A model generated the notes under the pieces. That model had not been told where the DNA came from. It was given only the letters and a program-made list of their open reading frames with translations, and did not search any database. 64,000 bases of DNA, from the NCBI RefSeq assembly GCF_000949385.2, contig NZ_JYKO02000001.1, forward strand, positions 1 to 64,000, given 5' to 3'. How positions within the stretch are numbered: the first letter of the stretch is position 1; every line of letters starts with the position of its first letter. Below, piece after piece: positions 331-14,555 of the stretch. The position numbers and the translations under genes are program-made. This stretch comes from Pseudomonas sp. LFM046. Its GTDB lineage: Bacteria; Pseudomonadota; Gammaproteobacteria; Pseudomonadales; Pseudomonadaceae.

Positions 331-1323
331 ATGTCCCCCTCCCGCAAGCTCCTGGTGCTCTATACCGGCGGCACCATCGGCATGCAGATGACCGATGCCG
401 GCCTCGCTCCAGCCTCCGGCTTCGAAGCCAGGCTGTGCGCTGAGCAGGCAGCCCACCCGCAGCGCCCAGCGCCGCCCTGGGTGTTCCGCGAAATGCTGCC
501 GCTGCTGGACAGCGCCAACATGACCCAGGCCAATTGGCTGGCCATGCGCGATGCCATAGTCGACGGTGTGGAGAAGGACGGCTGCGATGCCGTGCTGCTG
601 CTGCATGGCACCGACACCCTGGCCTATAGCGCCGCCGCGCTCTCCTTCCTGCTTCTGGGTCTGCCGGTGCCGGTGGTGCTCACTGGCTCCATGCAGCCCG
701 CAGGCGTCGAAGGCGGCGATGCCTGGCCCAATCTCTTCGGCGCCCTGGCGCTGCTCGCCGCAGGCGTCGCCCCTGGCGTGCACCTCTACTTCAACGGCAA
801 GTTGCTCAATGGCGTGTGCGTCACGAAGCGGAGGAGCGATACGTTCGATGCCTTCGCCGAGGCCGGTCGGCCGCGCCATGGCCAGCGCGTGCAAGGCGTA
901 CCCGCAGAGCTCGACTACCGCAGGCCTCGCCAGCCGGTGCGCCTCGCCGTGCAACCCCTGTTCCCCGGGCTCTCCGCCGCGCAGTTGCGTGCTGTGCTCG
1001 ACAGCGGCGTCCAGGGCGTGCTGCTGGAGTGCTACGGTAGCGGCACCGGCCCTTCGGACAACGCCGACTTTCTCGCCGCCCTCAAGGAGGCCCGCGCTCG
1101 CGGCGTAGTGCTGGCCGCCATCAGCCAGTGCCCGGAAGGCGCGGTGAAGTTCGGCGTCTATGCCGCTGCCAGCCACCTGGCCCGTACAGGCTTGGTGTCG
1201 TGCGCCGGCATGACCCGCGAAGCAGCGCTGGCCAAACTCTTCAGCCTTCTCGGCGTGGGCCTGCCCCAGGCTGAAGTGGAGCGCTGGCTGACGCTGGATC
1301 TCTGCGGCGAGATGGCCCTCTGA
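331..1323 (+). CDS. ansA: Cytoplasmic (type I) L-asparaginase
   Basis: The product is 330 residues, normal for the family. It should hydrolyse L-asparagine to aspartate and ammonia. It shows both family signatures: TGGTIG at residues 12-17, with the candidate nucleophile Thr15, and HGTDT at 92-96. There is no signal peptide (the start is MSPSRKLLVLY), which favours a cytoplasmic type I-like enzyme over the periplasmic high-affinity type. The ATG at 331 has GGAG about 7 bases upstream. It stands alone between the rRNA terminator and a 331-bp gap. The family is clear; the assignment to type I is inference. Confidence 0.9.
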   Translation: MSPSRKLLVLYTGGTIGMQMTDAGLAPASGFEARLCAEQAAHPQRPAPPWVFREMLPLLDSANMTQANWLAMRDAIVDGVEKDGCDAVLLLHGTDTLAYSAAALSFLLLGLPVPVVLTGSMQPAGVEGGDAWPNLFGALALLAAGVAPGVHLYFNGKLLNGVCVTKRRSDTFDAFAEAGRPRHGQRVQGVPAELDYRRPRQPVRLAVQPLFPGLSAAQLRAVLDSGVQGVLLECYGSGTGPSDNADFLAALKEARARGVVLAAISQCPEGAVKFGVYAAASHLARTGLVSCAGMTREAALAKLFSLLGVGLPQAEVERWLTLDLCGEMAL

Positions 1324-1654
1324 GCCGAGCATGATGACAAGGCCCCGGCAGCGAGCCGGGGTTGTCGCGGCACACTCACAACGCCTGGCGCGAACCCTCG
1401 GCCAGTGCGCGCAAGCAACGCACGCCCAGCAGCCCCTCTCTCCCCTCCGCCCACTTTAGCGGGCCGTCCACGTCTCCCCGCCCTCACTCATTCCGCTACC
1501 CAGAACGAGCTACCCGGTTCGCGCTAGCGCGCCCGGACTACCGCGAACCGGCGATTGTTGCCCTCCACCCCCGCGACTAGAACTGACACAGCGGCCGCAC
1601 AAGGTCCGGCGCTCGCAGCCAGGCGGCATCCGCCGCAGCTACAGGAGGTTTTCC
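1324..1654 (+). promoter_or_regulatory. Upstream region of the unknown cassette, with nested inverted repeats
   Basis: No gene is supported in these 331 bases. At 1514-1551 the 10-bp arms CCGGTTCGCG and CGCGAACCGG form a perfect inverted repeat with an 18-bp spacer. The left arm overlaps a separate perfect 12-bp palindrome, CGCGCTAGCGCG, at 1520-1531. This lies about 104 bp before the first cassette gene, a plausible place for a regulator site or an mRNA 5' structure. Which protein binds is unknown; the LuxR-type protein at the far end of the cassette is one possibility. Confidence 0.5.
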
Positions 1655-2806
1655 ATGAGCCAACAGTTTGATGAGGACGTGATGGACGAACTCACCGCGG
1701 ACGTCCCGGCCGCCGCCGACGAATTGGACGAAGGCCTGGATATGGAGGGATTCGAAGACGGCGAGGCCTACGACGAGGCAATGGGCGATGCGATGGAAGA
1801 CGAAGCCGATTTTGCCGACGAAGCCATCGACGAAGCCTTTGCCCTGGACGAGTACGACGCCGGCGACGGGTTCGACGAAGGCGCCGACGAATACGACGAA
1901 ACCGAGTTGCTCGACGCCTTCGAGGACGTGATGGCCGATGCCCTGGATGCCGGTGATGCCGATGAATTCTTCGGCCGCCTGCTGGGTGGAGTCAGCCGGC
2001 TGGCCGGTCTGGTCGGGCGTGGCGCCCGCGGTGCAGGCCAGCTAGCGCACAATGTGCGTGGTGGGGCCCGCCAGGTGGGCGGCATCGCCCGTACGGTCGG
2101 CCGTGCTGCCGGTCAGGTCGGCCGGGTGGCCGGGCGGGTCGGCCATGTCGCCAACCGCGTTGGGGGGATCGCCGGACGTGTCGGCAACGTTGCCGGGCGT
2201 GCCAGCAGCATCGCCAACCAGGTGGGCGGGATCGCCGGCAGTGTCGGACGGATCACTGGCCGCGCCGCGCAGTCGGCCGATCCTCTCGGCAGCCTGCTGC
2301 AGCAACTGGTGCCGATCCTGCAGCAATACCAGGCGCAGGGGCTCGATGAACTGGATGCGTTCGAGGACATGGCCGACTGGCTGGCCGAAGAGGACTTCGA
2401 CGGCGCCTTGCCGGTGCTCGGCGGCCTTGCCGCACGCGTGTTGGTACGGCCAGTGCTGCAGCGCGCGGCCGGTGCCGGAATCGCCCAGCCGCTGCGTCGG
2501 CAATTGGTACGCAGCGCTACCCAGGCGGCGCGGACCCTGGCCCAACGTCGCGGTCCACAGGCGGTGCGGGCATTGCCGCGCCTGGCACAGGGCGTCGCGC
2601 GCACGGCGCAGCGCCGCCAGACACCGGCACGAGCCCTGCCCCGTGCGATCCGCCGCACCGCCAGCCAGGTTGCGGCGCGGCCGCAACTGATTCGCCGCCT
2701 CGCGCAAATAGGGATCACCGGTGGGCCCGCAGTGGGCGGCGCTACCGCTCCTGTGCAACGGATAAGGCTGAACGGGCCGGTCGAGCTCGTCATACATCGT
2801 CGATGA
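1655..2806 (+). CDS. Unknown charge-polarised protein with nine Gly/Val heptads (paralog A)
   Basis: I do not recognise this 383-residue protein. Four zones are visible. Residues 1-105 are strongly acidic and end in a block with DALDAGDADEFFGRL. Residues 140-202 are nine tandem heptads of the form x-V-G-x-I/V-A-G/N. Residues 210-260 form a helical, partly acidic segment. Residues 265-350 are very basic and Arg/Ala-rich, including RRQLVRSATQAARTL. The C-terminus is RLNGPVELVIHRR. There is no signal peptide. The start is fixed by AGGAGG seven bases before the ATG. The next gene encodes a shorter paralog with the same order of zones. A glycine-zipper-like membrane or self-assembly segment and a polyanion-binding tail are possible readings, not evidence of function. 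Confidence 0.85.
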   Translation: MSQQFDEDVMDELTADVPAAADELDEGLDMEGFEDGEAYDEAMGDAMEDEADFADEAIDEAFALDEYDAGDGFDEGADEYDETELLDAFEDVMADALDAGDADEFFGRLLGGVSRLAGLVGRGARGAGQLAHNVRGGARQVGGIARTVGRAAGQVGRVAGRVGHVANRVGGIAGRVGNVAGRASSIANQVGGIAGSVGRITGRAAQSADPLGSLLQQLVPILQQYQAQGLDELDAFEDMADWLAEEDFDGALPVLGGLAARVLVRPVLQRAAGAGIAQPLRRQLVRSATQAARTLAQRRGPQAVRALPRLAQGVARTAQRRQTPARALPRAIRRTASQVAARPQLIRRLAQIGITGGPAVGGATAPVQRIRLNGPVELVIHRR

Positions 2807-2863
2807 ACGCAATCCACGGCACGTTCGCGTGCTGAAACAGCAGCGCAAGCGAAGGAGAACGCC

Positions 2864-3751
2864 ATGAGCGACTTTGATACCGATGTGATGGAGGACCTGA
2901 TGGATGCCGTGGAAGGTCCGGCGCGGCAGGCCTACGACGCATTCGATGAATACGACGAGGGCGATGAGTTCGACGAATACGACGAAGGCGATGAGTTTCT
3001 CGGCGGGATCGCCGGCCGGGGGCAGGCGGCCGACGATTTCGACGAGTTCGCCGACAGTTACGCCGAGGCGGGCTTCGACTCGCTGGAAGATGCCGTGGCC
3101 GATGCCCTGGAGGCCGGCGACGGAGATGAGTTCTTCAGGCGGCTGGGCAATATCGCGCGTACTGTCGGTCGCGGCATCGGCCGGGTTGCGCGCGTCGTCG
3201 CGCCCATCGCCAGTGCGATTCCGCTGCCCCAGGCGCAACTGGTCGGGCGCATCGCCGGCATGGCCGGACGCCTGCTGGCCGATGGCGCCGACGAGTTTGA
3301 GGCGATCGACGAACTGGTGGACAGCTATGACGACGACGCCATCGATGCCGCCGCGCCGATAGTCGCCGGGCTCGCGGTACGCCGCGCGGTGCCCAACGTC
3401 GCGCGCCTGCCGCAACAGCAGCGCCGGCAACTGGTACGCAGCGCGACCCAGGCCACGCGCACCCTCGTGCGCCGCCAGGGCGCCCCGGCCGCACGCGCGG
3501 TGCCGCGCATCGTCACCACGGCGCAACGGGCCGTGCGCGCTCGGCGCGTGCCGGCGCGGGCGATGCCGCAGGTGGTCCGTCGCGTAACCCAACAGGTGCT
3601 CCGGCGCCCGGCACAGGTTCGCCAGTTGGCCCGGCCGCTGACCCGCGCCACCACGCGAGTGACTCCGCGCGCTGCGGGCGGTGTTTGTCCGCATTGCGCG
3701 CATCGGCACCTGCGGATTCGTGGCCCGGTGACCATCCATATCGGGCGTTGA
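2864..3751 (+). CDS. Unknown charge-polarised protein with C-terminal Cys/His knuckle (paralog B)
   Basis: This 295-residue protein is a paralog of the upstream product. It shares the N-terminal FDxDVMxxL motif, the ALEAGDGDEFFRRL block, the basic RRQLVRSATQATRTL block and a C-terminal RGPVTIHIGR ending. It lacks the nine heptads and has a short Val/Arg/Gly-rich stretch instead. Residues 28-45 are a perfect tandem repeat of DEYDEGDEF. Near the end, Cys275, Cys278, His280 and His282 (CPHCAHRH) could bind a metal; paralog A has no equivalent. It starts 57 bp after A with GAAGGAGA upstream. Function unknown. Confidence 0.85.
   Translation: MSDFDTDVMEDLMDAVEGPARQAYDAFDEYDEGDEFDEYDEGDEFLGGIAGRGQAADDFDEFADSYAEAGFDSLEDAVADALEAGDGDEFFRRLGNIARTVGRGIGRVARVVAPIASAIPLPQAQLVGRIAGMAGRLLADGADEFEAIDELVDSYDDDAIDAAAPIVAGLAVRRAVPNVARLPQQQRRQLVRSATQATRTLVRRQGAPAARAVPRIVTTAQRAVRARRVPARAMPQVVRRVTQQVLRRPAQVRQLARPLTRATTRVTPRAAGGVCPHCAHRHLRIRGPVTIHIGR
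2945..2998 (+). repeat. 27-bp tandem duplication in paralog B
   Basis: Two adjacent in-frame 27-bp units encode DEYDEGDEF twice, with a few synonymous differences between copies. This points to a local duplication within the acidic N-terminal zone. Confidence 0.8.
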
Positions 3752-3778
3752 ACGCGGCATGGCAAGGAGGCGACGGTC

Positions 3779-5080
3779 ATGGACATACGGAAATTCCTGC
3801 GCACCAAGGTCCTGGGTCTGTCGGCGCGCCTGTCACGGCTGGCGCGCATCGACAATGCCTTCGTCGGCCTGCGCGCGCAGGATCTGCCCTATGCACCGTC
3901 GCCTGCCCATATCCAGGTCGCGAACCAGCGTCTGGCCGGTATCGAGGCGAACATCAAGCGACGCTACCGGCACCTGGCCAATACCTGGGAACAGGCACCG
4001 GCCAATCGCGTGCTGATCGACATCGCGCTGGTGGAGCGTGAGCTGGACCGGGCACGCCGCGCCTTTGGCATGTTCTTCGAAGTGTTCGCCCAGCGCGGTA
4101 CCAGCTTCGGTCCGGCGTTGTCGGCCCATGACGCCATCGCAGCCGACTGCTACGACGCGATTCGCCTGCATGCGCCCCGCATTTTCGACGGCCCGCTGCT
4201 CAAACCCGTTTGCTACATGGAGCACGGCTATTCACCGGCGACCATGCGCCGTGGCGTGCAGCTCTCGCGCCTCCTGGGCGAGGCCAACCCGTTCCCGCTG
4301 ATCCGTATCCCGTGGGATCGCGACCAGCCCTGGCAGGCCGTGTTCCTGCACGAGGTCGCGCATAACCTGCAGGCAGACCTGGGCATCTGGCAGGAGAATC
4401 GCCAGGCGGTAATCCGCCGGTTGCTCGGGCAACTGCGCGACCCGGCCATCACCTCGGTCTACGCCCGCTGGCACAAGGAAATCTTCGCCGACCTGGCGGC
4501 GATCCTGCTCGGCGGGCCGGCCGCGGCCTGGGGCATGGCGGAGTTTCTCGCCCATCCGGCGCCGCGGGTCCTGACCTACAGGCCCGGGGCCCACCCCACC
4601 GGCTACCTGCGCATCCTGATCCTGGCGGAGATGTTGCGTCGGCTGGGCTTCCAACGCGACGCCAGCCAGCTGACACAGCTGTGGAACACCTTCTACGACC
4701 CGAAGCGCTTCCACCGGCTGCCGCCCCGCCTGCTCGGCAGCGCCGAGCGCACCATCCCGCTGGTGGTCGACGAAATCGCCTTCCAGACGCGGCGCAACCT
4801 GGCCCAGCGCGCCCTGGTGGACATCCTGCCATTCGGCCCTGCCGACCAGGCGCGCATCACCGAAGGCGCGCGCCTGTTGACGCAGGGCCGGGCATCGCAA
4901 CTGACGCTGCCGCCGCGCCATGTCGTCAGTGCGGCGGCCTATGCGCTGGCGTCGGGCCGCATTGCCCCACGCGTCCTCGCCGACCAGGTCACCGCGTACC
5001 TGAATGGCGAACCCGTTCCGCGAACCGAGAAGTCACGTCCACGCGTGGCGGCGCGACGTGAGCCCGTGTCTGTCGCCTAA
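3779..5080 (+). CDS. Putative zinc metallopeptidase of the unknown cassette
   Basis: The product is 433 residues. HEVAH at residues 191-195 is a classic HExxH zinc site within VFLHEVAHNLQADL. Glu234 in WHKEIFADLAA, 39 residues downstream, is a good third ligand in the gluzincin style. No signal peptide or clear membrane segment is seen, so it probably acts in the cytosol unless exported by a non-classical route. It starts 27 bp after paralog B with AAGGAGG, so it is surely co-transcribed. Processing of the two paralogs upstream is a reasonable guess. I cannot assign a peptidase family. Confidence 0.75.
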   Translation: MDIRKFLRTKVLGLSARLSRLARIDNAFVGLRAQDLPYAPSPAHIQVANQRLAGIEANIKRRYRHLANTWEQAPANRVLIDIALVERELDRARRAFGMFFEVFAQRGTSFGPALSAHDAIAADCYDAIRLHAPRIFDGPLLKPVCYMEHGYSPATMRRGVQLSRLLGEANPFPLIRIPWDRDQPWQAVFLHEVAHNLQADLGIWQENRQAVIRRLLGQLRDPAITSVYARWHKEIFADLAAILLGGPAAAWGMAEFLAHPAPRVLTYRPGAHPTGYLRILILAEMLRRLGFQRDASQLTQLWNTFYDPKRFHRLPPRLLGSAERTIPLVVDEIAFQTRRNLAQRALVDILPFGPADQARITEGARLLTQGRASQLTLPPRHVVSAAAYALASGRIAPRVLADQVTAYLNGEPVPRTEKSRPRVAARREPVSVA

Positions 5081-5105
5081 CGCTGCAATGGAGATGAGGT
5101 AGACC

Positions 5106-7502
5106 ATGGTCACTTATTCGAGCACCACCGCTTCCCCTGCCGGCAGCGGCAGCAACGCCGGGACACTGGAAAACCAGCAACGCACCCTGGCACTGGACAA
5201 CCTGATCCGCCGCGAGCTGAAGGTGGGCGATCCGAGCGACCCGCGGCAGATCGCCACGGCGTTGCTCGACCGCTACAAGGCCGACCCGCGCGCCCATTCG
5301 ATCGCCACCGAGGCCAAGGGACTGCCCACCCAGGCCAACGGTTACACGCCCGCCATTGCGGTGCCGGTCACCACCTCCACCGATGCCGAATGGCAGCAGG
5401 CGCTCGACGACATCGAACTCGACCTGCGCGAGCTGACCAGCAACGTCCTGGTCAAGGACATCGTGCCGGAGCTTCGGGGCTGGGCGCAGGCCATCCGCTC
5501 GGCGCTGAAGGAGGGTCACCAGGCCGCCCGCTTCGCCCTCGATGCCCGCCAGCGTGACAAGGTCTTCGGCATCCGCAGGCAATTGAACGACTATGCGCGG
5601 CTGGCTCGGCTCATCGGCGTGCTGACGCCGTCCATTGCGCAGAACTACCGCAAGTTCGCCCAGAGCCTGGATGAAGCAGCGGCCGTGCTGCTGGTGATGA
5701 TGGGCGAAGTGCTCGCCCAGATCGGCTTCGGCGGTGGCCGCTTCCTGCTGCAGGCGCCTTATTCCGAGCTGCAGGGACGTCGCGACGCGGTGATCTACGC
5801 GCTGCGTAACCTGATCGGCTCGGCCCAGGAAGCGTATCGGCAGAGCGAGTGGCCGCGTGGCGTGGATGCCTACCGGCGCCTGTTCAAGGCCCTGGAGGAT
5901 CGTGGCCATGGCGACCTGCGCGCCCTGCTGGTGGAAAACGAACTGGCGCGGGTGATGGACGAACTGCTGCAACGTGCATCGCAAGGCGAAAGCGAAGGGC
6001 TGCGCGCCCTGGGCTCGACCGCGCAGATCGACCTGGCGCGCTTCCGCCACCTGGTCGCGGTCAGCCGCAGCTTGGTGTCGCCTGAGTCGCCCTCGCTGAC
6101 GGCCTTCCTCGAAGCCCTGCTGCTGTTCGCCGAAGCCTTCGACTCGGCAGGCGGCTTCCGCCTGCTGCGCATCGCCCGGCCACCGATCCTGCTCTACGGC
6201 CTGTATGGTGCCCATGGCGACAACCAGCGTGCCGAAAGCCGCCTGCTGGAGCTTATCCATCAGCGCGCGCTGCTCGCCCATCGTCTGGATTGCCTGGCCA
6301 ATTGCGCCTGCGAGGGCGACGGGGTGAGTCGCCAGATCGTGCTCGACAAGGTGCTGTACGACATCGACCGCGCCATCGACCTGTACGCGCTCGGCCGTCC
6401 GGAGGCCGACTTCGGCCTGCATGAGCAACGGGCTTCCGCGTACAGCTACATCATCGACGCGGCATTGCTGGAGTGCGGCGTGTATGGCGGCGGCTCGCTC
6501 AAGCCGCGCGCGGAGCTGTTCATTTCGAGCAACGAGAAAGGGCAGTCCTTTATCGAAGTGCAGTGCGGCAAGCGCGCGGACCTCAATACGACGGTCACGC
6601 CGATAGAGGCCGGGTTGGAGCGCCTGAGGGGCCTGCTGCGTCCAACCTTCTACAGCGACGACAGCTGGTCCACCGATGCCAGCGTGCTGGCCGAGGCGGG
6701 GCCACAGTCCGCACGTCTCCAGGAGCTGCGCGTTGCCGGCCACCTGGAGTCGAGATGGAGTGAAATGGTGGCGACGATGGCGCCCGGCTGCATCAGCCAC
6801 CTGCGCATCTTCAATGGCGATGGCGTGCTGGTGCGTCTGATCAGGCGCGGCATCGTGCTCAGCAACAACGACTGGATGATGCACGTGAAAAAACATGGAA
6901 AGTCGGCAGTACGGCTGCACGTCGGCAATAGCCTGAATACCCGGTCCGCCGAACTGGGCAAGGTCATCGAGGCGCTGGATTCCGCCGTCGAAGGCGCCGC
7001 CGATTACGACGTGCTGGACATCGGCATGCCGCCGACCCTGGAAACCACGGCGGAGATGTTTGTCAGGGGTATCGAGCGCAGCGGGCTCAAGCGCGACGAG
7101 GTGGCCGAAGGCCCGAACATCGTCATACAGACGGAGGATCTCTCGCCCGAACCAGGCTCCTATCTGTCGGGCACCGCCACGGACCCGGAAGCCGCCGTCG
7201 CCCTCGTCCAGCAGCTTGGCATGGCGCTGATGGAGGGTGCGCGGTACGAGCAGTTCCTGGCCAGCGCGCAGGCGCTGGAAGCGCAGCAAGACGTCCTGCT
7301 CGCCAGCGTGCCAAACATCAACGAGGCGGAAGCGCAGCGCATCGTCGGCGAACTCGTCGGCTATGCCAGGAGCCTGCAGGGCAAGGACGCGGACGCGTAC
7401 ATCAAGCGCAACCGCAACAAGCTGCAGGGCCAGGTCTACCGCCTGTTCGAACTGGCCAGCGGCGACTCCAGGCTGGCCGAACAGGAGCCCGCTGATGCCT
7501 AG
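5106..7502 (+). CDS. Large unknown cassette protein, 798 aa
   Basis: The protein is not recognised. Residues 1-25 are Ser/Thr/Gly-rich and look disordered. Residues of about 30-430 look mostly helical, with many heptad-like Leu/Ala/Arg stretches (for example DDIELDLRELTSNVLVKDIV). The remainder is mixed, with a patch containing FISSNEKGQSFIEVQCGK and a final helical segment ending in acidic residues. There is no transmembrane segment or signal peptide. The ATG has GAGG upstream and follows the metallopeptidase gene by 25 bp. It is the largest product of the cassette and may be a scaffold or a multidomain effector; nothing in the sequence decides. Confidence 0.8.
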   Translation: MVTYSSTTASPAGSGSNAGTLENQQRTLALDNLIRRELKVGDPSDPRQIATALLDRYKADPRAHSIATEAKGLPTQANGYTPAIAVPVTTSTDAEWQQALDDIELDLRELTSNVLVKDIVPELRGWAQAIRSALKEGHQAARFALDARQRDKVFGIRRQLNDYARLARLIGVLTPSIAQNYRKFAQSLDEAAAVLLVMMGEVLAQIGFGGGRFLLQAPYSELQGRRDAVIYALRNLIGSAQEAYRQSEWPRGVDAYRRLFKALEDRGHGDLRALLVENELARVMDELLQRASQGESEGLRALGSTAQIDLARFRHLVAVSRSLVSPESPSLTAFLEALLLFAEAFDSAGGFRLLRIARPPILLYGLYGAHGDNQRAESRLLELIHQRALLAHRLDCLANCACEGDGVSRQIVLDKVLYDIDRAIDLYALGRPEADFGLHEQRASAYSYIIDAALLECGVYGGGSLKPRAELFISSNEKGQSFIEVQCGKRADLNTTVTPIEAGLERLRGLLRPTFYSDDSWSTDASVLAEAGPQSARLQELRVAGHLESRWSEMVATMAPGCISHLRIFNGDGVLVRLIRRGIVLSNNDWMMHVKKHGKSAVRLHVGNSLNTRSAELGKVIEALDSAVEGAADYDVLDIGMPPTLETTAEMFVRGIERSGLKRDEVAEGPNIVIQTEDLSPEPGSYLSGTATDPEAAVALVQQLGMALMEGARYEQFLASAQALEAQQDVLLASVPNINEAEAQRIVGELVGYARSLQGKDADAYIKRNRNKLQGQVYRLFELASGDSRLAEQEPADA

Positions 7503-7563
7503 GCGGCGATGAACGCAAGAGCAGCACCAACCAAGTCCAGGTGAACCTGCCGGGAGAGCGGCC

Positions 7564-8664
7564 ATGAGTTTTCAAACGACGGAAGTCATTCAGCGCCTGT
7601 GGGAAACCTTTCTGCGCGACCAACTGGCCAATTTGGCCCCCGAACAGCGACAGCAGTTCGAGGTGCAGTTCGAACAGCGCTTCGAACAACTGCTCAAGGG
7701 GGCCGCCAATGGCAACGGGCGCGACGGCTTTCTCGACCTGATCGGGTTCGGCAGCGAGGGCCCGGTCGATTTCGAGGACATCAGCTACCCCTACGTGCAG
7801 CCGGATTTCGACGATTCGGTGGTGCCGAGCCAGCTGCATGCTGCCGCCGAGCTGTACTTCATCTACCAGCACGAGCGCATGAAAGTGTTCCAGGTGGTGG
7901 ACGTGCTGCAACGGCTGTTCCGCCTCGGCAAGATGCGCATCCAGCGCGGGCCGGGCGCGCGCGGGCTGTACCTGCTGGAGAAATGGAAGCCGCTGCGCTA
8001 CTCGGCGCGGGACCGCATGGTCGCCTACCGGCGTGCGTTCAACTACGGCAACGCGCAGGCGCCGGCCGGGGCCATCGTCAACAAGAACTTCCATCGCCAG
8101 ATGGTCGGCTTCATGGTCGCGGTCTCGCATTACTTCCGCGACCTGCTCATCGGCGAAGTGATTCGCGGCGGCCAATTGATCGACCAGCGCCCCTTCGGCT
8201 CAGTGGCGACCATCCAGCGCCTGGGCATCGACCTGCGCTACGCGCTGGATCGCTCCACCTACGGCAACATCTTCTCGCTGTCGATGGAGGTCGGGCATTA
8301 CCTGCGCACCGTATTGCAGTTGCTCGACTCGCCCGACATCAAGAAGTCCTTCGACGCCAATACCAAGTGGGATGTCATCGAGATCGTCTCCAACCGCTAC
8401 CTGGGTGGCATCGCCGAACCCTCGCAGCGCGCCAAGATGGCCGAGTCGGGACGGCGGCTGCTGCAGTTCATCGCTGACAACGACTTCAAGACGGCGATCG
8501 ATCCGATCCTCTTCCAGTCGACCATACGGCCGCTGGGCCCGCACGCCGAAGCCTGGATCGCGGCGTACCGGATGACGCCGGATGGCCGCAGTTTCGCCGG
8601 CGTCACGCCTGCCCTCAAGGACGCCGTTGGCCAGCGGCCGCAGACATTGCGGGTCGTCGCCTGA
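7564..8664 (+). CDS. Unknown cassette protein, 366 aa
   Basis: The protein is not recognised. It is predominantly helical by eye. A Gln/Phe/Glu-rich N-terminal region (residues 15-45) is followed by an acidic linker with VDFEDISYPYVQPDFDD, then a long region without repeats. There is no signal peptide and no catalytic motif I can name. GGGAG precedes the ATG by about 8 bases, and the gap to the previous gene is 61 bp, so it belongs to the same unit. The normal amino-acid composition argues for a folded protein, unlike paralogs A and B. Confidence 0.8.
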   Translation: MSFQTTEVIQRLWETFLRDQLANLAPEQRQQFEVQFEQRFEQLLKGAANGNGRDGFLDLIGFGSEGPVDFEDISYPYVQPDFDDSVVPSQLHAAAELYFIYQHERMKVFQVVDVLQRLFRLGKMRIQRGPGARGLYLLEKWKPLRYSARDRMVAYRRAFNYGNAQAPAGAIVNKNFHRQMVGFMVAVSHYFRDLLIGEVIRGGQLIDQRPFGSVATIQRLGIDLRYALDRSTYGNIFSLSMEVGHYLRTVLQLLDSPDIKKSFDANTKWDVIEIVSNRYLGGIAEPSQRAKMAESGRRLLQFIADNDFKTAIDPILFQSTIRPLGPHAEAWIAAYRMTPDGRSFAGVTPALKDAVGQRPQTLRVVA

Positions 8665-8737
8665 CGACCCGCAATGACAGGGAAGTTGTTGCGGCACCGG
8701 TAGTTCGGACGGCCGACAGCGGCAGGGAGTAAGCACC

Positions 8738-9622
8738 ATGCTACAGCCCGATCTTTCCGTCACCCTGAGCCAGCGCCGCCGCAGCTGCGTCCTGGACCCC
8801 GCGCTGGCGCTGGCCACACCGTTCGGCCCGCAACTGGTCGAGCGGTTGGCGCCGTGGCTGGAGCTGTGGATGGCGCGTGCCTTCTGGCACATCCTCGACA
8901 GCAGCGAGTTTTTCCTGAGCCGCCCCGAGCAACTGTTCGCGGACCTGCATGCGGACTCGGCACAGCAGGTGAATGCCACCCAGTCGCTGCGCCTGTGGGA
9001 GCAGCGGCGCACGCAGACCGATTGCGCCAACCTGCCGTTCCACTGGATCGGCGACTGCACCAGCGAGTCGAGCCTGCCGAGCGCGTGGCAGAACGGCGCC
9101 GGCAGTGCCCTTATCCAGCGCTTTGAAACCCTGCACATCAGCCTGGTCGAGCGGGAATGGCAACGCGACGGCGGCGGGCGCTCTGAGCTGCGGCTGGCGC
9201 GTCTCGACGCACTCGCGCTGGCAGCGGCGCTGGGGCAGGCATTCGTGCTGACGACCCGAACGGAACATGGCCCGCAACTCTGCGGCGATATCGCCGCGCT
9301 GAAACTGGCCGACGGTGTCGAGGCGCTGTCGCGCGGCACATCCGGCGCCGCCCTGGCCAGCACCGAGCGTGAGTGGTTGTGCCAGTTGCTGGCGCAGGCC
9401 GGTGCGGCGCCGTTGGTCCTGGCCGGGCTGCCGCTGGCGGTGGTGCATGTGCTGGCGCCGGCTGCCAGCCTGCTCGCGGTCCAGCCGGTAGAAGAGCCGC
9501 TGCCGGCGATTGCCGAGCCGGACCCGGAGCTGGACGCACTGCTGGAGAGCGAACTGTCGACGGCGCATGAGGCCGCGCTCGACCCCTGGGGTGATGCGCG
9601 GATTTTCTGGTACCCGCTTTAA
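8738..9622 (+). CDS. Unknown cassette protein, 294 aa
   Basis: I do not recognise a family. The body is Leu/Ala-rich and probably helical, with a Trp-rich stretch near residues 30-50 (APWLELWMARAFWHIL). The C-terminus is acidic and proline-containing and ends in WGDARIFWYPL. No signal peptide is seen. GGGAG precedes the ATG. A small hairpin (TCTCCC / GGGAGA) occupies 9626-9642, and its right arm supplies the ribosome-binding site of the next gene, so it could couple or tune translation. Confidence 0.78.
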   Translation: MLQPDLSVTLSQRRRSCVLDPALALATPFGPQLVERLAPWLELWMARAFWHILDSSEFFLSRPEQLFADLHADSAQQVNATQSLRLWEQRRTQTDCANLPFHWIGDCTSESSLPSAWQNGAGSALIQRFETLHISLVEREWQRDGGGRSELRLARLDALALAAALGQAFVLTTRTEHGPQLCGDIAALKLADGVEALSRGTSGAALASTEREWLCQLLAQAGAAPLVLAGLPLAVVHVLAPAASLLAVQPVEEPLPAIAEPDPELDALLESELSTAHEAALDPWGDARIFWYPL

Positions 9623-9651
9623 GTCTCTCCCCGTGCGGGAGAAGGGAGCCA

Positions 9652-10674
9652 ATGGATATGTCAGAGACCTTGCAGGAGTACCGGGAACCCAGGACCCTCG
9701 ACCGTGCCGCCGATTCCGGGCGCCGGCCGCGGCTGAACGAACGCGCGCTGGTCATGGTCAGCGTGGCGGGCCAGATCGCCCACCCGGTCGGCCGCGCAAA
9801 CCCCTACCGCATCGGCTACGACGGCGTGCCGCGGGTGCTGCCGGCCACCGGCGGCATCGTCCTCAATCACCGGATCGGCGACCCGTGCATCGGCCTCGCT
9901 GGCGATCACATCGAGCCTGGCGTGGCGCTGCACAACAACGGCCGCGAAGTGGTCGGCCCGCGCGATGGCCCGAACACCGCGCTGATGACCTATGCCTGCG
10001 TCGGCAACCACGCACGGGTGATCAGCGGCCCCTGCGCGGGGCAGGCGGGCGTCGTCACCGGCAAGCACGGTGGCATCAACCACGTCCTGGTGGACTTCCC
10101 GACCAAGGTGCTCAGCCGCCTGCAGATCGGCGATCGCATCCAGATCGTCAGCCACGGCCTCGGCGCGCGGCTGCTCGACTATCCCGATATCGAGCTGCTC
10201 AATTGCGCGCCACGGCTGCTCTGGCGCTGGGGCATCCAGGAGCGCGACGGCCGGCTGCTGGTGCCGGTCAGCCACCGGGTGCCCTCGGTGCTGATGGGCT
10301 CTGGCCTGGGCAAGAACAGCACCTGGCGCGGCGACTACGACATCCAGCTCGCCGATCGTGGCCTGCGTGAGCGCTATCGGCTCGGCAGCCTGCGCTTCGG
10401 CGACCTGGTGGCCATCGTCGATGCCGACAACCGGCGCGGCCCGTTGTACCGGCCGGGGCGGGTCACCATTGGCGTCATCGTGCATGGCGACAGCACCGTC
10501 AGCGGCCACGGACCCGGTGTGACGCCCCTGCTGACCGGGCCCAGCGCCCGCCTTGTGCCGCACCTGAGCCCCAGGGCCAACCTCGCCGCGGTGCTGGATA
10601 TTCGCGAGCCGGCGCCCTTGCGTGACTACCGGACCCTGATCGAGGCCAGCACGACCCGAGGGCGGACGAGATGA
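9652..10674 (+). CDS. DUF4438-family protein
   Basis: The 340-residue product resembles what I know as the DUF4438 family. It has the family-like segments SVAGQIAHPVGR, PATGGIVLNHRIGDP and LHNNGREVVGPRDGP, and a C-terminal GVIVHGDSTVSGHGPG motif. As far as I know the family has structural representatives but no established reaction. It looks like a soluble beta-rich protein without a signal peptide. Another in-frame ATG at 9658 is possible; 9652 is kept because GGGAG lies close upstream. It is the last structural gene of the cassette and the only one I can tie to a named family apart from the peptidase and the regulator. Confidence 0.7.
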   Translation: MDMSETLQEYREPRTLDRAADSGRRPRLNERALVMVSVAGQIAHPVGRANPYRIGYDGVPRVLPATGGIVLNHRIGDPCIGLAGDHIEPGVALHNNGREVVGPRDGPNTALMTYACVGNHARVISGPCAGQAGVVTGKHGGINHVLVDFPTKVLSRLQIGDRIQIVSHGLGARLLDYPDIELLNCAPRLLWRWGIQERDGRLLVPVSHRVPSVLMGSGLGKNSTWRGDYDIQLADRGLRERYRLGSLRFGDLVAIVDADNRRGPLYRPGRVTIGVIVHGDSTVSGHGPGVTPLLTGPSARLVPHLSPRANLAAVLDIREPAPLRDYRTLIEASTTRGRTR

Positions 10675-10902
10675 CCGCAAGATGAAATTTCTTCAGCGGC
10701 CGGCACGGCGGTAGGGGGTCAACTATGCTTGCACTCCCTGTTTTGGAACTGTCCGCGCTGGTCGGATGGCACGGCGAGCCGCCGGGGTGGGAGTGTGGGC
10801 GCTCAAAACCCGCCCGACATCCCCGTGGTACGGAACGCATGCGCTCGCCGGGGAAGGCTGCGGGTAGTGGTGTCGGCGCAACTGAGGCCAGGGAATGTCA
10901 AT

Positions 10903-11274
10903 ATGGAAGACAAACGGGAATGGCGCGCGGCCGATCTGACCGCGCTCGCCGAGAGGTTGAACCTACCCCACCAACCGACGCGGTCGGGCATGGAACCGGC
11001 GATTCTCGCCACAGGCGTCGACTCGTCGGACAGGCTGCTGATGCTGCTCACTGCACGCGAACTGCAGATCGCCACGCTGGTATGCCTCGGCCGACTCAAC
11101 AAGCAGATCGCGGCTCAACTGAAAATCAGCGAACACACCGTCAACACCCACCTGCGCCGCGTCTACTCCAAGCTGGGCGTGAACAACCGGGCGGCGATGG
11201 TCTTTCGGTGTGCGCCCTATCTTGAGCATGACTGCCAACTGGGGCTGCAACGTACGTCCGACCGCGCCGGCTGA
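10903..11274 (+). CDS. Stand-alone LuxR-type HTH regulator
   Basis: Starting at the ATG at 10903 the product is 123 residues. The C-terminal half is a LuxR/GerE DNA-binding domain: LLTARELQIATLVCLG, then NKQIAAQLKISEHTVNTHLR, then VYSKLGV and NRAAMVF. The first 40 residues are too short for a receiver or autoinducer domain. The reading frame is open further upstream, to 10729, but that part lacks convincing coding character. It lies 228 bp after the DUF4438 gene in the same direction and may be separately transcribed. It is the obvious candidate regulator of the cassette. Confidence 0.8.
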   Translation: MEDKREWRAADLTALAERLNLPHQPTRSGMEPAILATGVDSSDRLLMLLTARELQIATLVCLGRLNKQIAAQLKISEHTVNTHLRRVYSKLGVNNRAAMVFRCAPYLEHDCQLGLQRTSDRAG

Positions 11275-11375
11275 GTGCAGGCTTCACGACCCTTTCGTCG
11301 CCAACGGTCGCGGAGCCTGGCAGGGGCAGGGCAGTGTGTGACAGGAGGGTGACGCTGCAACCGCGCGGGGAGGGC

Positions 11376-11672
11376 TCAGCCGTCCGCTTCCCGCCGCATC
11401 GCCGTGCGCGCGGCCAGCAGCAGGTCGCAGGCGTCCGTCAGCAGCAGTTCCGCCGCCTGGGCGAAATGCACCAGGTCGCGCTCGTCGGCGTAGCCCGGTT
11501 CTATCGACGCCAGGCTTTGCAACAGGCCCCTGGCCGCGTTCAGACGCAGGTCGGCGCATTCTTGCAGGTCGAGAGAGGAACAGCTGCCGTCGAGCAACAG
11601 GACAGGCGTCCTCCTGGCATTGCCGGTGAGGGGAATCAGTTCGGCGGAGGGGGTTGGGAAATCCGTGTGCAT
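11376..11672 (-). CDS. Small Pseudomonas-type hypothetical protein (DUF3077/DUF6124-like)
   Basis: From the ATG at 11672 the product is 98 residues. The C-terminal two thirds are a helical hairpin-like segment (LQECADLRLNAARGLLQSLA, then FAQAAELLLTDACDLLLAA). That layout recalls the short pseudomonad proteins filed under DUF3077/DUF6124, but the match is by impression only. The frame stays open upstream to 11975; the shorter start is preferred because the upstream part is Arg/Ser-rich and lacks coding character. It converges on the LuxR-type gene. Confidence 0.5.
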   Translation of the reverse strand: MHTDFPTPSAELIPLTGNARRTPVLLLDGSCSSLDLQECADLRLNAARGLLQSLASIEPGYADERDLVHFAQAAELLLTDACDLLLAARTAMRREADG

Positions 11673-12202
11673 ATGAAGCTCCAACTTGAAGTGAGAGCTG
11701 CCACGCTTCGCGGCCAAGCGAAGTAGGGTGGCAACTGTACGCGGGTTGGCCGACCGGAAAGTTGGCATCCGGCACACCCGAAGGTGTCCCACGTACAGCT
11801 GCCATGACACGACATCGCATACGCGGAAGCGCTGCGATGGGGATGGGCGGCTGTACGCCAACTTGAACGACCGGCCAAGGTCGGCCACGGGATTGACCGT
11901 GGCGGGCCGGACTATAGGCGGGGAAAGAGGGATAAGGCAACGGCCGCTGCCGTGCCGTTCCGCTGACATTGACACAGTCGGCGGGAAGTCAGCCCTGAAA
12001 CTGCGTCTTTGGTTAAGATGCCTGGCTCATGCCGCCAGACCGGGGGCGTATCAAATCCCCCTGGCTGGTCAGCCTTTCGAGACGAAGCATCTGCAGTGAA
12101 CCACGCGGTCCACAACAAACTGGTTTCCTTCATCTGGTCCCTTGCCGATGATTGTCTGCGTGTGGTGGAGCCTGGCGACATAAAGGAATGGGGGATCGCC
12201 TG
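11673..12202. other. 530-bp gap without a supported gene
   Basis: Weak overlapping reading frames occur on both strands but none has a good start site or recognisable product. The stretch should contain the divergent promoters of the small gene on the left and of the broken ATP-binding gene on the right. No tRNA, clear terminator or long repeat was seen. Confidence 0.4.
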
Positions 12203-13671
12203 ATGACGGTGGAGCGTGACCTTGGCTATCTGCAATCCCTGCTCAGGGAGTTGTGCGCGCTGCCACAGGAAACCGAGTGGGTGGAGTTCAAGCAGGACAA
12301 CGACGATGCGCCAATGATCGGCGAATATATCTCGGCGCTGGCCAATGCCGCTGCCCTGCTCGGTAAGCAATATGGCTATCTGGTTTGGGGCGTTGAGGAT
12401 GTCAGCCATAGCGTGATCGGCACGACCTTCAAGCCCTCTACCACTCGCTACAGGCAGCAGGAGCTGGAAAGCTGGCTGTTGCAGAAGACCGCGCCGAAGA
12501 TCCATTTCCGCTTTTTCGAATTTGCCGCCGCCGACGGCCAGCCGGTGGTGATACTAGAAGTCCAGGCGGCTAGCCATACCCGGTGCAGTTCGATGGCATC
12601 GAATATATCCGCGTCGGTTCCTACAAGAAGAAGCTGCGCGACTTTCCGGAAAAGGAACGGGCGCTCTGGCGGGTGTTCGACCGTGTGCCCTTCGAGCAGC
12701 AACTGGCCGCGCAAAATCTTGGCGTCGACCAGGTGCTCAAGCTGCTCGACTACCCGGCCTACTTCGACCTGACCCACCAGCCGCTACCGGAAGGGCGCGA
12801 GGCAATTCTCGCCGCGCTGGCGGCCGACCGGATGATCCAGCGTAGCGATAGCGGTCAATGGCATATCAGCAACCTGGGCGCCATTCTCTTCGCCAAGCGC
12901 CTACAAGATTTCCCGGCCTTGGGGCGCAAGGCCGTGCGCCTTATTCACTACAAGGGCAACGGCAAGCTTGAAACCCTGCGCGAACTCACGGGTAACAAGG
13001 GCTACGCCCTGGGCTTCGAAGGGTTGATCGACACCCTGAAGACGCTGCTCCCGTCCAACGAGGAAATCGGCAAGGCCTTTCGCCAGGACGTGCCCATGTA
13101 TCCGGAGCTGGCCCTGCGTGAGCTGGTGGCCAATGCCATCATCCACCAGGACTTCAATCTGAGTGGCACCGGGCCGATGATCGAACTGTTCGAGCGGCGC
13201 ATGGAAATTACCAACCCGGGCGTGCCGCTTGTGGACCCGCAGCGCTTTCTCGACAGCCCACCACGCAGCCGCAACGAGGTGCTGGCCTCGTTCATGCGCC
13301 GCATCGGCATTTGCGAAGAACGTGGCAGCGGTATAGACAAGGTCATTGCCCAGACGGAGCTGTACCAGCTCCCCGCGCCCATCTTCGAACAGACGGACGA
13401 GCACACTCGCGTGGTGCTGTTCGCGCACAAAGACTACAGAGATATGGAGCAGGAGGATCGTATTCGCGCCTGTTACCAGCATTGCTGCCTGAAGTACGTG
13501 AACCGTGAGCCAATGAATAACACTTCGCTGCGTGAGCGCTTCCAGATCGACGAGGGCAATAGCGCCATGGTTAGCCGGATCATCAAACAGACCATTGAGG
13601 CGGGTTTGATTCGCTTGTATGACCCCAAGGCCAATCGCAAGGCCTATCGCTATGTGCCGAGCTGGGCTTGA
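12203..13671 (+). pseudogene. Frameshifted AlbA_2/Schlafen-type ATP-binding protein
   Basis: Two overlapping frames together encode one protein of about 489 residues. The first frame (from ATG 12203) carries an AlbA_2/Schlafen-like N-terminal domain: EWVEFKQDN, then ISALANAAALL, then GYLVWGVED. The second frame, from about 12583, continues with QFDGIEYIRVGSYKKKLRD and contains the HATPase_c_4-like ALRELVANAIIHQDF and EERGSGIDKV segments. The break is at 12578-12582, where ACC CGG TGC reads on wrongly. One extra C would give ACC CCG GTG CAG and restore the frame, so a base was lost in a C run. It could be a real inactivation or a sequencing error. These proteins are common in accessory regions. 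Confidence 0.8.
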
Positions 13672-13672
13672 A

Positions 13673-13856
13673 CTCATTTGACGGTCATTTGATTGGACGG
13701 GCCGCCGCCAGCGCGCAGGCATGGGGAACCGCGCGATTTCAGCCGCTTCCACTCGCGTCGCTCATTTGCCGGCCATTTGACTGCGGCGGCCAATGCCGCC
13801 GGGAAAATACCCTTACGCGTCGTAGATTCAAGGCGTTGGAAAAGGCGCTCATTTGA
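13673..13856 (+). repeat. Spaced CTCATTTG/CATTTGA repeats after the broken gene
   Basis: The unit CTCATTTGACGG-TCATTTGA at 13673-13692 recurs as CTCATTTGCCGG-CCATTTGA at 13761-13780, 88 bp further on. A third half-copy, CTCATTTGA, lies at 13848-13856. They start immediately after the stop codon of the broken gene. They could be degraded coding repeats of its former 3' end or a small non-coding repeat. Confidence 0.5.
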
Positions 13857-13860
13857 CTGA

Positions 13861-14052
13861 ACAGATATCTATAGACGAATTGGCCGAGCTGCCAGAGCCG
13901 CCGCAGCGCAGTACTTCGATAATGTCGATGCGAGGCAGTTGGCTGTGCTGATCGAAACCGCCGTAGAACGATTCGATGCAGATGTGCTGAAGCCAGGATC
14001 TGGAGCTGTACTGCTTGGCGGCCAGCGACGCGGTACTCAAGTCGACATTTGA
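13861..14052 (+). pseudogene. Start-less gene fragment of about 63 codons
   Basis: An open frame preceded directly by a stop codon, with no good start, reads IGRAARAAAQYF, DNVDARQLAVLIETA and VERFDADVLKPGSGAVLLGG before its stop. The composition looks like real protein, not antisense noise. I cannot name the family. It lies between the broken ATP-binding gene and the tRNA and is best seen as a decayed remnant of an accessory gene. Confidence 0.4.
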
Positions 14053-14118
14053 GCAGAGTTTGCTGGGATTGCTGGAATAAGGATTGCCGCCCCACTGGCC
14101 GGCAGGCGCAGGAAAAAC

Positions 14119-14149
14119 AAAGGCCCCAGGACTGCTCCTGGGGCCTTTT
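14119..14149 (-). terminator. Terminator downstream of tRNA-Arg
   Basis: AAAGGCCCCAGGA and TCCTGGGGCCTTTT pair as a strong hairpin with A and U tracts on both sides. It lies just 3' of the minus-strand tRNA and could also stop transcription from the left. Confidence 0.85.
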
Positions 14150-14156
14150 CTGTAGA

Positions 14157-14233
14157 TGGCGCATCCGGCGGGATTCGAACCCACGACCCCTGCCTTCGGA
14201 GGGCAGTACTCTATCCAGCTGAGCTACGGATGC
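14157..14233 (-). tRNA. tRNA-Arg(CCG)
   Basis: Read on the minus strand, the gene begins GCATCCG and ends CGGATGC-G-CCA, with the CCA encoded. The D arm has AGCTCAGCTGGATAGAG and the T arm GGTTCGAATCC. The anticodon stem CTGCC/GGCAG encloses the loop CTCCGAA, giving anticodon CCG for Arg codon CGG. The 3' end faces the accessory remnants at 12203-14052, consistent with use as an integration site, but no second att copy was seen in the window. Confidence 0.95.
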
Positions 14234-14555
14234 GTATGGGGCCGCAATCATACCCATCTCGCGGGCGTGCGTCCACGCGAGATGCCTTGTTCGCGATGTT
14301 GAACGATGGTGCCGCTTCTGGTCATCTTTGATCAGGATTTCGACAAACTGCACTGACTTTTTGTTGATTTTATCGAACGGGCTATTGCCCTCGAGTTTCC
14401 CGCACCCTAGGATTCCGTTTGAGATTTCAAACGCCCCATTGCCCCTCCATGAACCGGGCCGTTCCAATCGACTCCGTCATGGCGGATCCCGCATTGGCCG
14501 TAGAACAACAACCTGCCCCGGCGCCCCGTACTGCGCTGGCGTGAAGGAGACAGAG
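14234..14555 (+). promoter_or_regulatory. gabDT upstream region with an inverted repeat
   Basis: No gene is supported in these 322 bases. The inverted repeat CGTTTGA-gatt-TCAAACG lies at 14416-14433, about 120 bp before gabD, and the stretch before it is locally AT-rich (TTTTTGTTGATTTTATC). It is a candidate operator for the gabDT regulator. No regulator gene lies next to it. Confidence 0.45.

Follow-up and report, generated by a model that had tools for sequence, protein, structure and literature searches.

Known glutamyl endopeptidases of the S1B type are secreted enzymes. In the zincin metallopeptidase/FxSxx-COOH systems (Haft and Basu 2011), as summarized in a section of PMC7159879, a zincin protease is accompanied by a variable precursor with a conserved C-terminus, and that section distinguishes four types of precursor C-terminal motif: FxSxx, RxD, contiguous acidic and FtsH-associated. 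These systems were compared with a gene cluster near the start of a 64,000-nucleotide stretch of Pseudomonas sp. LFM046 (contig NZ_JYKO02000001.1, positions 1 to 64,000; called the window below), whose genome is 5.97 Mb in four contigs. Seven same-strand genes, P1 to P7, span 1655-10674 (+), and a gene for a LuxR-type helix-turn-helix (HTH) protein, P8, comes next. Comparison of homologous loci indicates that the seven-gene set and its regulator are a unit co-inherited across phyla, and this unit may be a module for protein processing, probably a cytoplasmic one. In the form that we favor, with a probability of roughly 0.3, proteolysis would remove the acidic half of P1 and P2 and free their cationic half, with P5 (and P4) serving as scaffold or chaperone. 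The predicted genes are the following.

1655..2806, + strand: P1, 383 residues, an acidic N-terminal part and then an Arg-rich basic part, with a C-terminal motif of the GPVxLxI type
2864..3751, + strand: P2, 295 residues, a paralog of P1, with C-terminal CPxC and then GPVxIxI
3779..5080, + strand: P3, 433 residues, a predicted zinc metalloprotease (HExxH ... E..AD) without a Pfam family
5106..7502, + strand: P4, 798 residues, of which the N-terminal 450 or so are strongly conserved and the C-terminal part is variable
7564..8664, + strand: P5, 366 residues, the best-conserved member, predicted to be all-helical
8738..9622, + strand: P6, 294 residues, weakly conserved, yet found at every one of the 33 loci with room for it
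9652..10674, + strand: P7, 340 residues, a DUF4438 protein related to Thermotoga TM1086 (PDB 3dcl, 3n99)
10729..11274, + strand: P8, a LuxR/GerE-type HTH regulator whose start is uncertain

The likeness to the zincin/FxSxx-COOH systems lies in a zincin-like protease beside fast-diverging proteins with a more conserved C-terminus, within a larger operon. P1/P2 genes adjoin the zincin-like P3 gene, upstream of it, in 30 of the 31 loci with room, P1 and P2 being the putative precursors; their variability and conserved C-terminus next to a zincin would follow the logic set out for FxSxx-COOH systems in the section of PMC7159879 cited above. The differences lie in the partners and in the proteins themselves. 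The operon loci have no constant radical-SAM, vWA, MoxR or AP-ATPase partner; the P1/P2 proteins are charge-polarized and about 300-400 residues long; P4 to P6 match no family searched; and the usual P1/P2 end, GP[VAI]x[ILVF]x[ILVF], appears to differ from a motif of the FxSxx-COOH type (tails were checked for other motifs by eye). Neither a VMAP/FtsH ternary system nor an AP-ATPase association was found by family clustering of the loci, in which neighbors were not domain-scanned singly. Because the partners differ, we have not filed the operon with the zincin/FxSxx-COOH systems, of which it appears not to be a member, although the working principle may be shared. An accessory serine protease found at some loci resembles the S1B glutamyl endopeptidases (V8, Bacillus type) in its best structure match, 1p3c, and in its conserved catalytic and Thr/His residues, but has no evident signal peptide and lies in an operon with a possible acidic substrate. 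P7 matches both Pfam halves of the DUF4438/TM1086 family, yet DUF4438 is mostly operon-free among the 398 genomes of the phylum of the window that were scanned.

The initial annotation of this DNA had matched none of the larger proteins to a known system, and library searches bear this out: in Pfam, NCBIfam, PADLOC and PHROGs alike, P1 to P6 gave nothing at E<=0.001, the nearest being P1 at E 0.0024. In PADLOC, the window operon gave only matches of P8 to two CARF3 models over its HTH (best 1.3e-9) and a weak match of P1 to a ZorA coil (E 0.0024). As for phage tails and contractile injection systems, at the sequence level P1 to P7 had no PHROGs match at E<=0.001 and no structural Pfam match; the match to a phage tail or secretion apparatus that would have refuted the initial annotation did not appear in the family libraries or in scans of viral contigs. 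Searches of open PubMed Central papers turned up no description of the operon, and by these comparisons it belongs to no described system that we found.

All eight open reading frames (ORFs) were recovered with the lengths, places and order originally proposed, including the gaps of 25-73 bp (57, 27, 25, 61, 73 and 29 bp from P1 to P7), and the strong Shine-Dalgarno sites claimed for the first seven correspond to purine-rich, Shine-Dalgarno-like stretches upstream of every gene from P1 to P7. The ratio of nonsynonymous to synonymous substitution rates (dN/dS) between the window and Pseudomonas sp. BN417 was 0.080 for P3, 0.166 for P4, 0.027 for P5, 0.076 for P6, 0.067 for P7 and, counted from position 10903, 0.21 for P8; the comparison covers P3 to P8, since the BN417 contig ends before P1 and P2. 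These low values point to real, constrained genes, and the measured genes of the operon are evidently under purifying selection. Among the matches listed, the best named relatives of P2 and P4 were from Pseudomonas indica (87% and 71%) and from BN417 (95% for a partial P2, 91.6% for P4).

The set was found on 36 contigs from gamma-, beta- and alphaproteobacteria, cyanobacteria and Kuenenia, an anammox Planctomycete. These loci came from a scan of genome contigs with the P4 alignment and patterns, so that P4 is present by construction; a further locus, L003, is the same contig as L004 and stands outside the 36. Homolog searches scored at most 8000 candidates, and genome scans only the best few per genome (five in the P1/P2 and P5 scans of 398 genomes). 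Where the contig extended far enough, P3 was present in 36/36 loci, P5 in 35/35, P6 in 33/33, P8 in 29/29, at least one P1/P2 gene in 30/31, two P1/P2 genes in 20/24 and P7 in 25/31, the six loci without P7 all being alphaproteobacterial. Gene order was scored as colinear in 35 of the 36; the exception is the Crenalkalicoccus locus, where a P4 ORF extended too far upstream upsets both colinearity and the placement of P1/P2. Where the contig includes P8, this gene follows the others on the + strand in the cyanobacteria, alphaproteobacteria, Kuenenia, Nitrosomonas and most gammaproteobacteria, and is upstream and divergent in nine loci, from other betaproteobacteria and Pseudomonas R5. Independently of P4, P5 was found in three of the 398 genomes, that of the window included, and P1/P2 in the same three; P3 was found in those three and as two weak, partial matches in genomes without P5. 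The co-occurrence check proposed in the initial annotation thus finds the genes traveling together. Homologs scattered singly, the opposite outcome considered there, are mostly absent; what there is of this kind comprises DUF4438, which is common alone, the two weak P3-like matches, and remote P5-like proteins on plasmids. Beyond P1 to P8, no additional family was constant, none occurring in more than six loci except F0, which consists of antisense shadow ORFs from gene calling in GC-rich loci; for this count neighbors were not domain-scanned one by one.

The LuxR-type identity first given to P8 stands (GerE/LuxR domain, E 1.4e-17), whereas its start is uncertain, lying either at a TTG at 10729 with a weak site or at an ATG at 10903. 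As a candidate LuxR box ahead of P1, no perfect palindrome with arms of 7-9 recurred in 26 upstream regions, two Burkholderia loci excepted. Ahead of the HTH, many P8 homologs have a pair of short, hairpin-like stretches, possibly a sensor; no recognizable copies of these were seen by eye in P8 of the window or of BN417.

P1 and P2 had been described as paralogous, charge-polarized small proteins, and both parts of the description agree with the alignments. The two are 34% identical over 389 columns, and their charges are -45/+28 for P1, split at residue 104, and -35/+29 for P2, split at residue 161. Taking as polarized any ORF of at least 200 residues with one half at most -10 and the other at least +10, polarity was seen in 47 of 50 ORFs of the P1/P2 family (4 of 54, being shorter, were dropped) and in 30 of 376 other ORFs called at the same loci, controls that include antisense shadow ORFs; by this measure the polarity is not a matter of chance. 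The acidic half is Asp/Glu-rich, and the basic, C-terminal half is strongly cationic and nearly Glu-free, with a median charge of +29 and a median length of about 210 residues. The proteins have glycine/alanine-rich segments, and P1 carries a repeated segment of 21 nt (7 residues). Mean pairwise identity in the family is 36%, indicating fast divergence. The C-terminal motif GP[VAI]x[ILVF]x[ILVF] is found in 42 of the 54 ORFs, compared with 0.07% of shuffled tails, and 19 of 54, mainly of the P2 type, have a CxxC inside the last 45 residues. In Kuenenia (L028, 17825-18262), another small acidic-then-basic protein is encoded directly behind the LuxR gene.

P3 had been singled out as an HExxH protein, and it has the motif HEVAHN together with a downstream KE..AD; H191, E192, H195, E234 and D238 are the same in all 25 sequences aligned, and P3 is predicted to be a zinc metalloprotease. 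The P3 C-terminus is Ala-Ala in 16 of 25 sequences and Ala in 23 of 25, possibly a C-terminal recognition tag. An extra trypsin-fold protease gene is present in nine of the 36 loci (L027, L028, L029, L031-L034, L037 and L039) and in genome G222. It is placed downstream of P6/P7, and before P8 in all eight of the nine loci that have P8 on the contig; at L034 it reads as two overlapping ORFs. In a phmmer search of solved structures with the L033 protein, the best match was 1p3c (E 4.1e-19), and nine of the ten best were glutamyl endopeptidase or V8 protease, the other being 7uxg, 'Serine protease'; matches to exfoliative toxin A and further serine proteases ranked below these. In an alignment of the proteins from eight of the loci and G222, with the split L034 ORFs left out, the catalytic residues H65, D117 and S194 were invariant in 9/9, as were T189 and H212. 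A Thr/His pair of this type is presumably the Glu-binding pair that sets Glu specificity in V8-type enzymes. With a trypsin-like domain, an S1B-like Ser motif and this pair, the accessory protease is, as judged from its residues, related to the Glu-specific endopeptidases (S1B). At loci with the serine protease, Glu accounts for 18.1 of every 100 residues in the P1/P2 acidic half and for 2.4 in the basic half (9 ORFs), compared with 11.8 and 1.6 at loci without it (41 ORFs). Such Glu-rich acidic halves are as expected of a precursor with a Glu-cleavable inhibitory half, although kinship could do the same.

Divergent loci suggest what the essential part of the module may be. Genome G151 combines P3 and P5 with a P1-like protein and a LuxR gene and has a different protein in the place of P4, and a Paraburkholderia megaplasmid (PGU19) has two P1-like proteins, P3 (265.7 bits), P5 (221 bits) and a LuxR gene next to an M20 peptidase gene (PF01546); in both, P4, P6 and P7 were not found by profile. 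The minimal core thus appears to be P1/2, P3, P5 and LuxR, and its retention in G151 and PGU19 supports a processing module. Weaker P5 relatives lie on plasmids of Tolypothrix and Burkholderia pyrrocinia beside annotated S8 peptidases, which we counted in favor of the processing module. In genome G379, a large protein, whose likeness to P5 is by eye and not significant, comes after a weakly P1-like protein (18 bits) and one that is P3-like. P5 and the large protein of G379 and G297 are collinear over 234 columns, which we treat as a lead only; kinship between them was rejected, the hhalign P values of 0.076 and 0.078 being background (P6-P4, a pair taken as unrelated, gave 0.067). The cassettes of G379 and G297 (L065 and L066) are related-looking, with HExxH proteins, a large uncharacterized protein and, in L066, an amidohydrolase (PF04909); the weakly P1-like protein of L065 is Glu/Phe-rich, and a GIY-YIG-like protein and a sigma-54 activator were seen by eye.

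Taken together, these features suggest the following scheme. From its position, the LuxR-type P8 would switch the operon on. P1 and P2 would be made as two-sided precursors, in which the Asp/Glu-rich half neutralizes a cationic, helix-forming half. P3 would cut off the acidic half, joined in early-branching lineages by the serine protease of Glu-specific type, and the cationic half, once free, might bind to something anionic, for instance membrane, cell wall or nucleic acid. P5, with P4 and P6 in loci of the window type, would serve as a helical scaffold or chaperone, either holding P1/P2 or presenting these proteins to the protease. A wider proposal, which we put forward tentatively and hold to be rather doubtful, is that these loci represent an undescribed class of intracellular, protease-triggered systems, found in three phyla by transfer, in which the metalloprotease releases precursors that are self-inhibited by an acidic half and sit on a helical, nearly invariant scaffold, the Glu-specific serine protease being an ancestral partner matched to a Glu-rich inhibitory half. 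Five families that the searched libraries leave unannotated (P1/P2, P3, P4, P5 and P6) move as one unit among Proteobacteria, Cyanobacteria and a Planctomycete, and this mobility, with a P5 that is 57-84% identical to the window copy across 62 aligned relatives, calls for a strong common function that is unnamed in the literature found. If release by proteolysis is correct, it would be a new protease-release principle in bacterial biology, and the match between a Glu-type protease and Glu-rich acidic halves is directly testable biochemically.

Several observations weigh against release of P1/P2 by proteolysis. The dN/dS of P5 (0.027) favors a structural or multi-partner role over that of a mere helper, and P7 has no role in the scheme. 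The window operon is without the serine protease, so that P3 alone would have to cut. At loci without the serine protease, the acidic halves have more Asp than Glu, and the Glu contrast between the two kinds of locus is confounded by kinship, with 9 versus 41 related sequences. The C-terminal motif is missing from 12 of 54 P1/P2 ORFs, some of them broken or short. The S8-neighbor clusters of Tolypothrix and B. pyrrocinia have no P1- or P3-like ORF by profile, and the finding of no signal peptides in the operon proteins was judged by eye only.

The rival that survives best, though we consider it doubtful, is a large assembly or compartment with P5, P4 and P7 as building blocks, P1/P2 as electrostatic linkers or cargo adaptors, and P3 as a maturation protease, as in phage heads. 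High conservation of P5, with a mean pairwise identity of 71% (37 sequences, compared with 33% for 35 P6 sequences), and of the N-terminal core of P4 is what contact-rich subunits would show. P7, identified from the start as a DUF4438 protein, exceeds the cut-off for both Pfam halves (PF14505, E 1.9e-53, 180.2 bits; PF20999, E 3.3e-46, 156.6 bits) and matches the solved TM1086 structures; according to the part of PMC2661377 that deals with it, the TM1086 crystal holds more than 1 MDa per asymmetric unit, and PDB 3n99 holds 30 chains. For DUF4438/TM1086 no function was found in the open PubMed Central literature, where DUF4438, PF14505 and dqs_2604 gave nothing. P1 has a slight likeness, which is not significant, to a tape-measure family (E 0.017). 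On the other hand, no capsid, tail or shell family was matched by sequence, the AlphaFold2 model of P5 (all-helical, mean pLDDT 73, pTM 0.64) had no convincingly similar fold among solved structures, phage records held no P4 relative and viral contigs no P3, P4 or P5 relative, and the divergent minimal forms lack detectable P4, P6 and P7, the last being missing also at 6 of 31 loci with room. An assembly would amount to a new kind of protein particle. The machine-like look that the initial annotation saw in the set holds as to the unit, the regulator, the paralogous small components and the protease, while a role of the large proteins as scaffold subunits is a supposition, P5 being predicted all-helical with no solved relative found.

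Homology between P4 and P5 was rejected, since hhalign gave P 0.27, which is background. P4 has a motif LDC...C.C......CQI at about residues 396-410 in 15 of 19 aligned homologs; its last cysteine is missing in the window, in the two nearest relatives and in one other, which hints at a degenerate metal site. At most loci a gene, X, sits between P4 and P5. That X is a piece fused into the longer P4 of the window is unproven: the X profile retrieved no full-length P4 at E<=10, and hhalign gave 0.32, in a weak test with X sequences picked by position and including the P4 fragments at L023 and L034.

A defense or cell-death device, in which infection or stress acts through LuxR or a sensor to activate the proteases and the cationic halves, once freed, damage membrane or DNA of the very cell that made them, is in our view unlikely; it is not mutually exclusive with an assembly. 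The cassette is rare and sporadic in its distribution (P5 in 2 of 18 genomes of the genus, that of the window included, and in three of 398 in the phylum), and it occupies a tRNA-Arg hot spot beside other variable cargo. The intracellular-looking, multi-protease make-up also fits, as do the CHAT, patatin and S8 genes next to remote relatives (a P3 relative on a Bradyrhizobium plasmid adjoins CHAT, patatin and phospholipase D genes), and protease cascades are a theme of described bacterial conflict systems (PMC7159879). Against this, PADLOC yields only the CARF-type models on the P8 HTH and the weak match between P1 and the ZorA coil, Pfam recognized no NTPase, nuclease or known sensor domain among the operon proteins, and near-frozen P5 and P3 differ from fast-evolving arms-race genes.

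Still less probable is a secreted or released antibacterial system in which processed P1/P2 hit competitors. It would suit the Gly/Ala-rich segments and cationic C-halves, and the genes close to two divergent forms, an M74 murein endopeptidase homolog in G151 and an annotated amidase in B. pyrrocinia, but no exporter, immunity or modification family is constant across the loci, signal peptides were not seen by eye, and C-halves of this length are large for peptides. A metabolic or housekeeping role, in which P7 would be the enzyme and the rest accessory, is very improbable, for although DUF4438 has conserved polar motifs and is often operon-free (69 of 398 genomes, compared with three for P5), P7 is dispensable and no metabolic gene is constantly linked. 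The breadth of DUF4438 indicates that P7 is a recruited member of a widespread family; 62 of the 69 genomes belong to one family (f58) of small-genome relatives, and G234 has two DUF4438 matches about 0.5 kb apart.

The position of the cassette in a tRNA-Arg insertion hot spot, a point absent from the initial annotation, was evident from comparison with relatives.

1311..14146, no strand: insertion block, present here and absent in relative G016
14157..14233, - strand: tRNA-Arg (CCG), the border of the insertion hot spot

Sequences matching the asparaginase end and the tRNA-Arg side are about 65 bp from each other in G016; in the window the block separates them. Other DNA occupies the same gap in G011, G006 and G008; that of G011 includes a gene for a phage-type integrase (PF00589, E 3.7e-9), and the tRNA end is present twice in G011. 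BN417 has the cassette and a stretch with a C4 RNA, then other cargo, then the tRNA. In G012 (L084), the asparaginase end and a match to the C4 region were found; a tRNA-Arg match was not found within the stretch taken. As to att-type repeats, there is no common 10-mer, on either strand, between 1290-1700 and 13901-14260. A phage or plasmid origin was considered and rejected: P4 has no match in plasmids or in phage records (the latter searched with P4 only), and viral contigs gave no relative among 31 (P4), 18 (P5) and 12 (P3) candidate stretches, remote P5 and P3 relatives being found on a few plasmids and megaplasmids.

In a tree of P5 (36 rows), the cyanobacterial copies fall with those of beta- and gammaproteobacteria (branch 100/99), and the alphaproteobacterial, Thiocapsa and Kuenenia copies lie outside this branch. 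Pseudomonas R5 groups with Aromatoleum (95/89) and not with the window, and the cyanobacteria form one group only at 84/76. Since the midpoint root falls on a single very long branch (G151) and metagenome bins supply several of the rows, the tree is compatible with transfer between phyla and is no proof of it.

Two further elements lie between P8 and the tRNA. A C4 antisense RNA (RF01695; 79.4 bits, gathering 45) is found at 11724-11809 (-), just downstream of P8, and the stretch around it matches BN417 beside its cassette and G012 (L084) about 7 kb past the asparaginase gene. At 12152-13671 (+), Schlafen/AlbA_2 (PF04326) and HATPase_c_4 (PF13749) parts occur in two overlapping frames, so that the gene there looks frame-broken.

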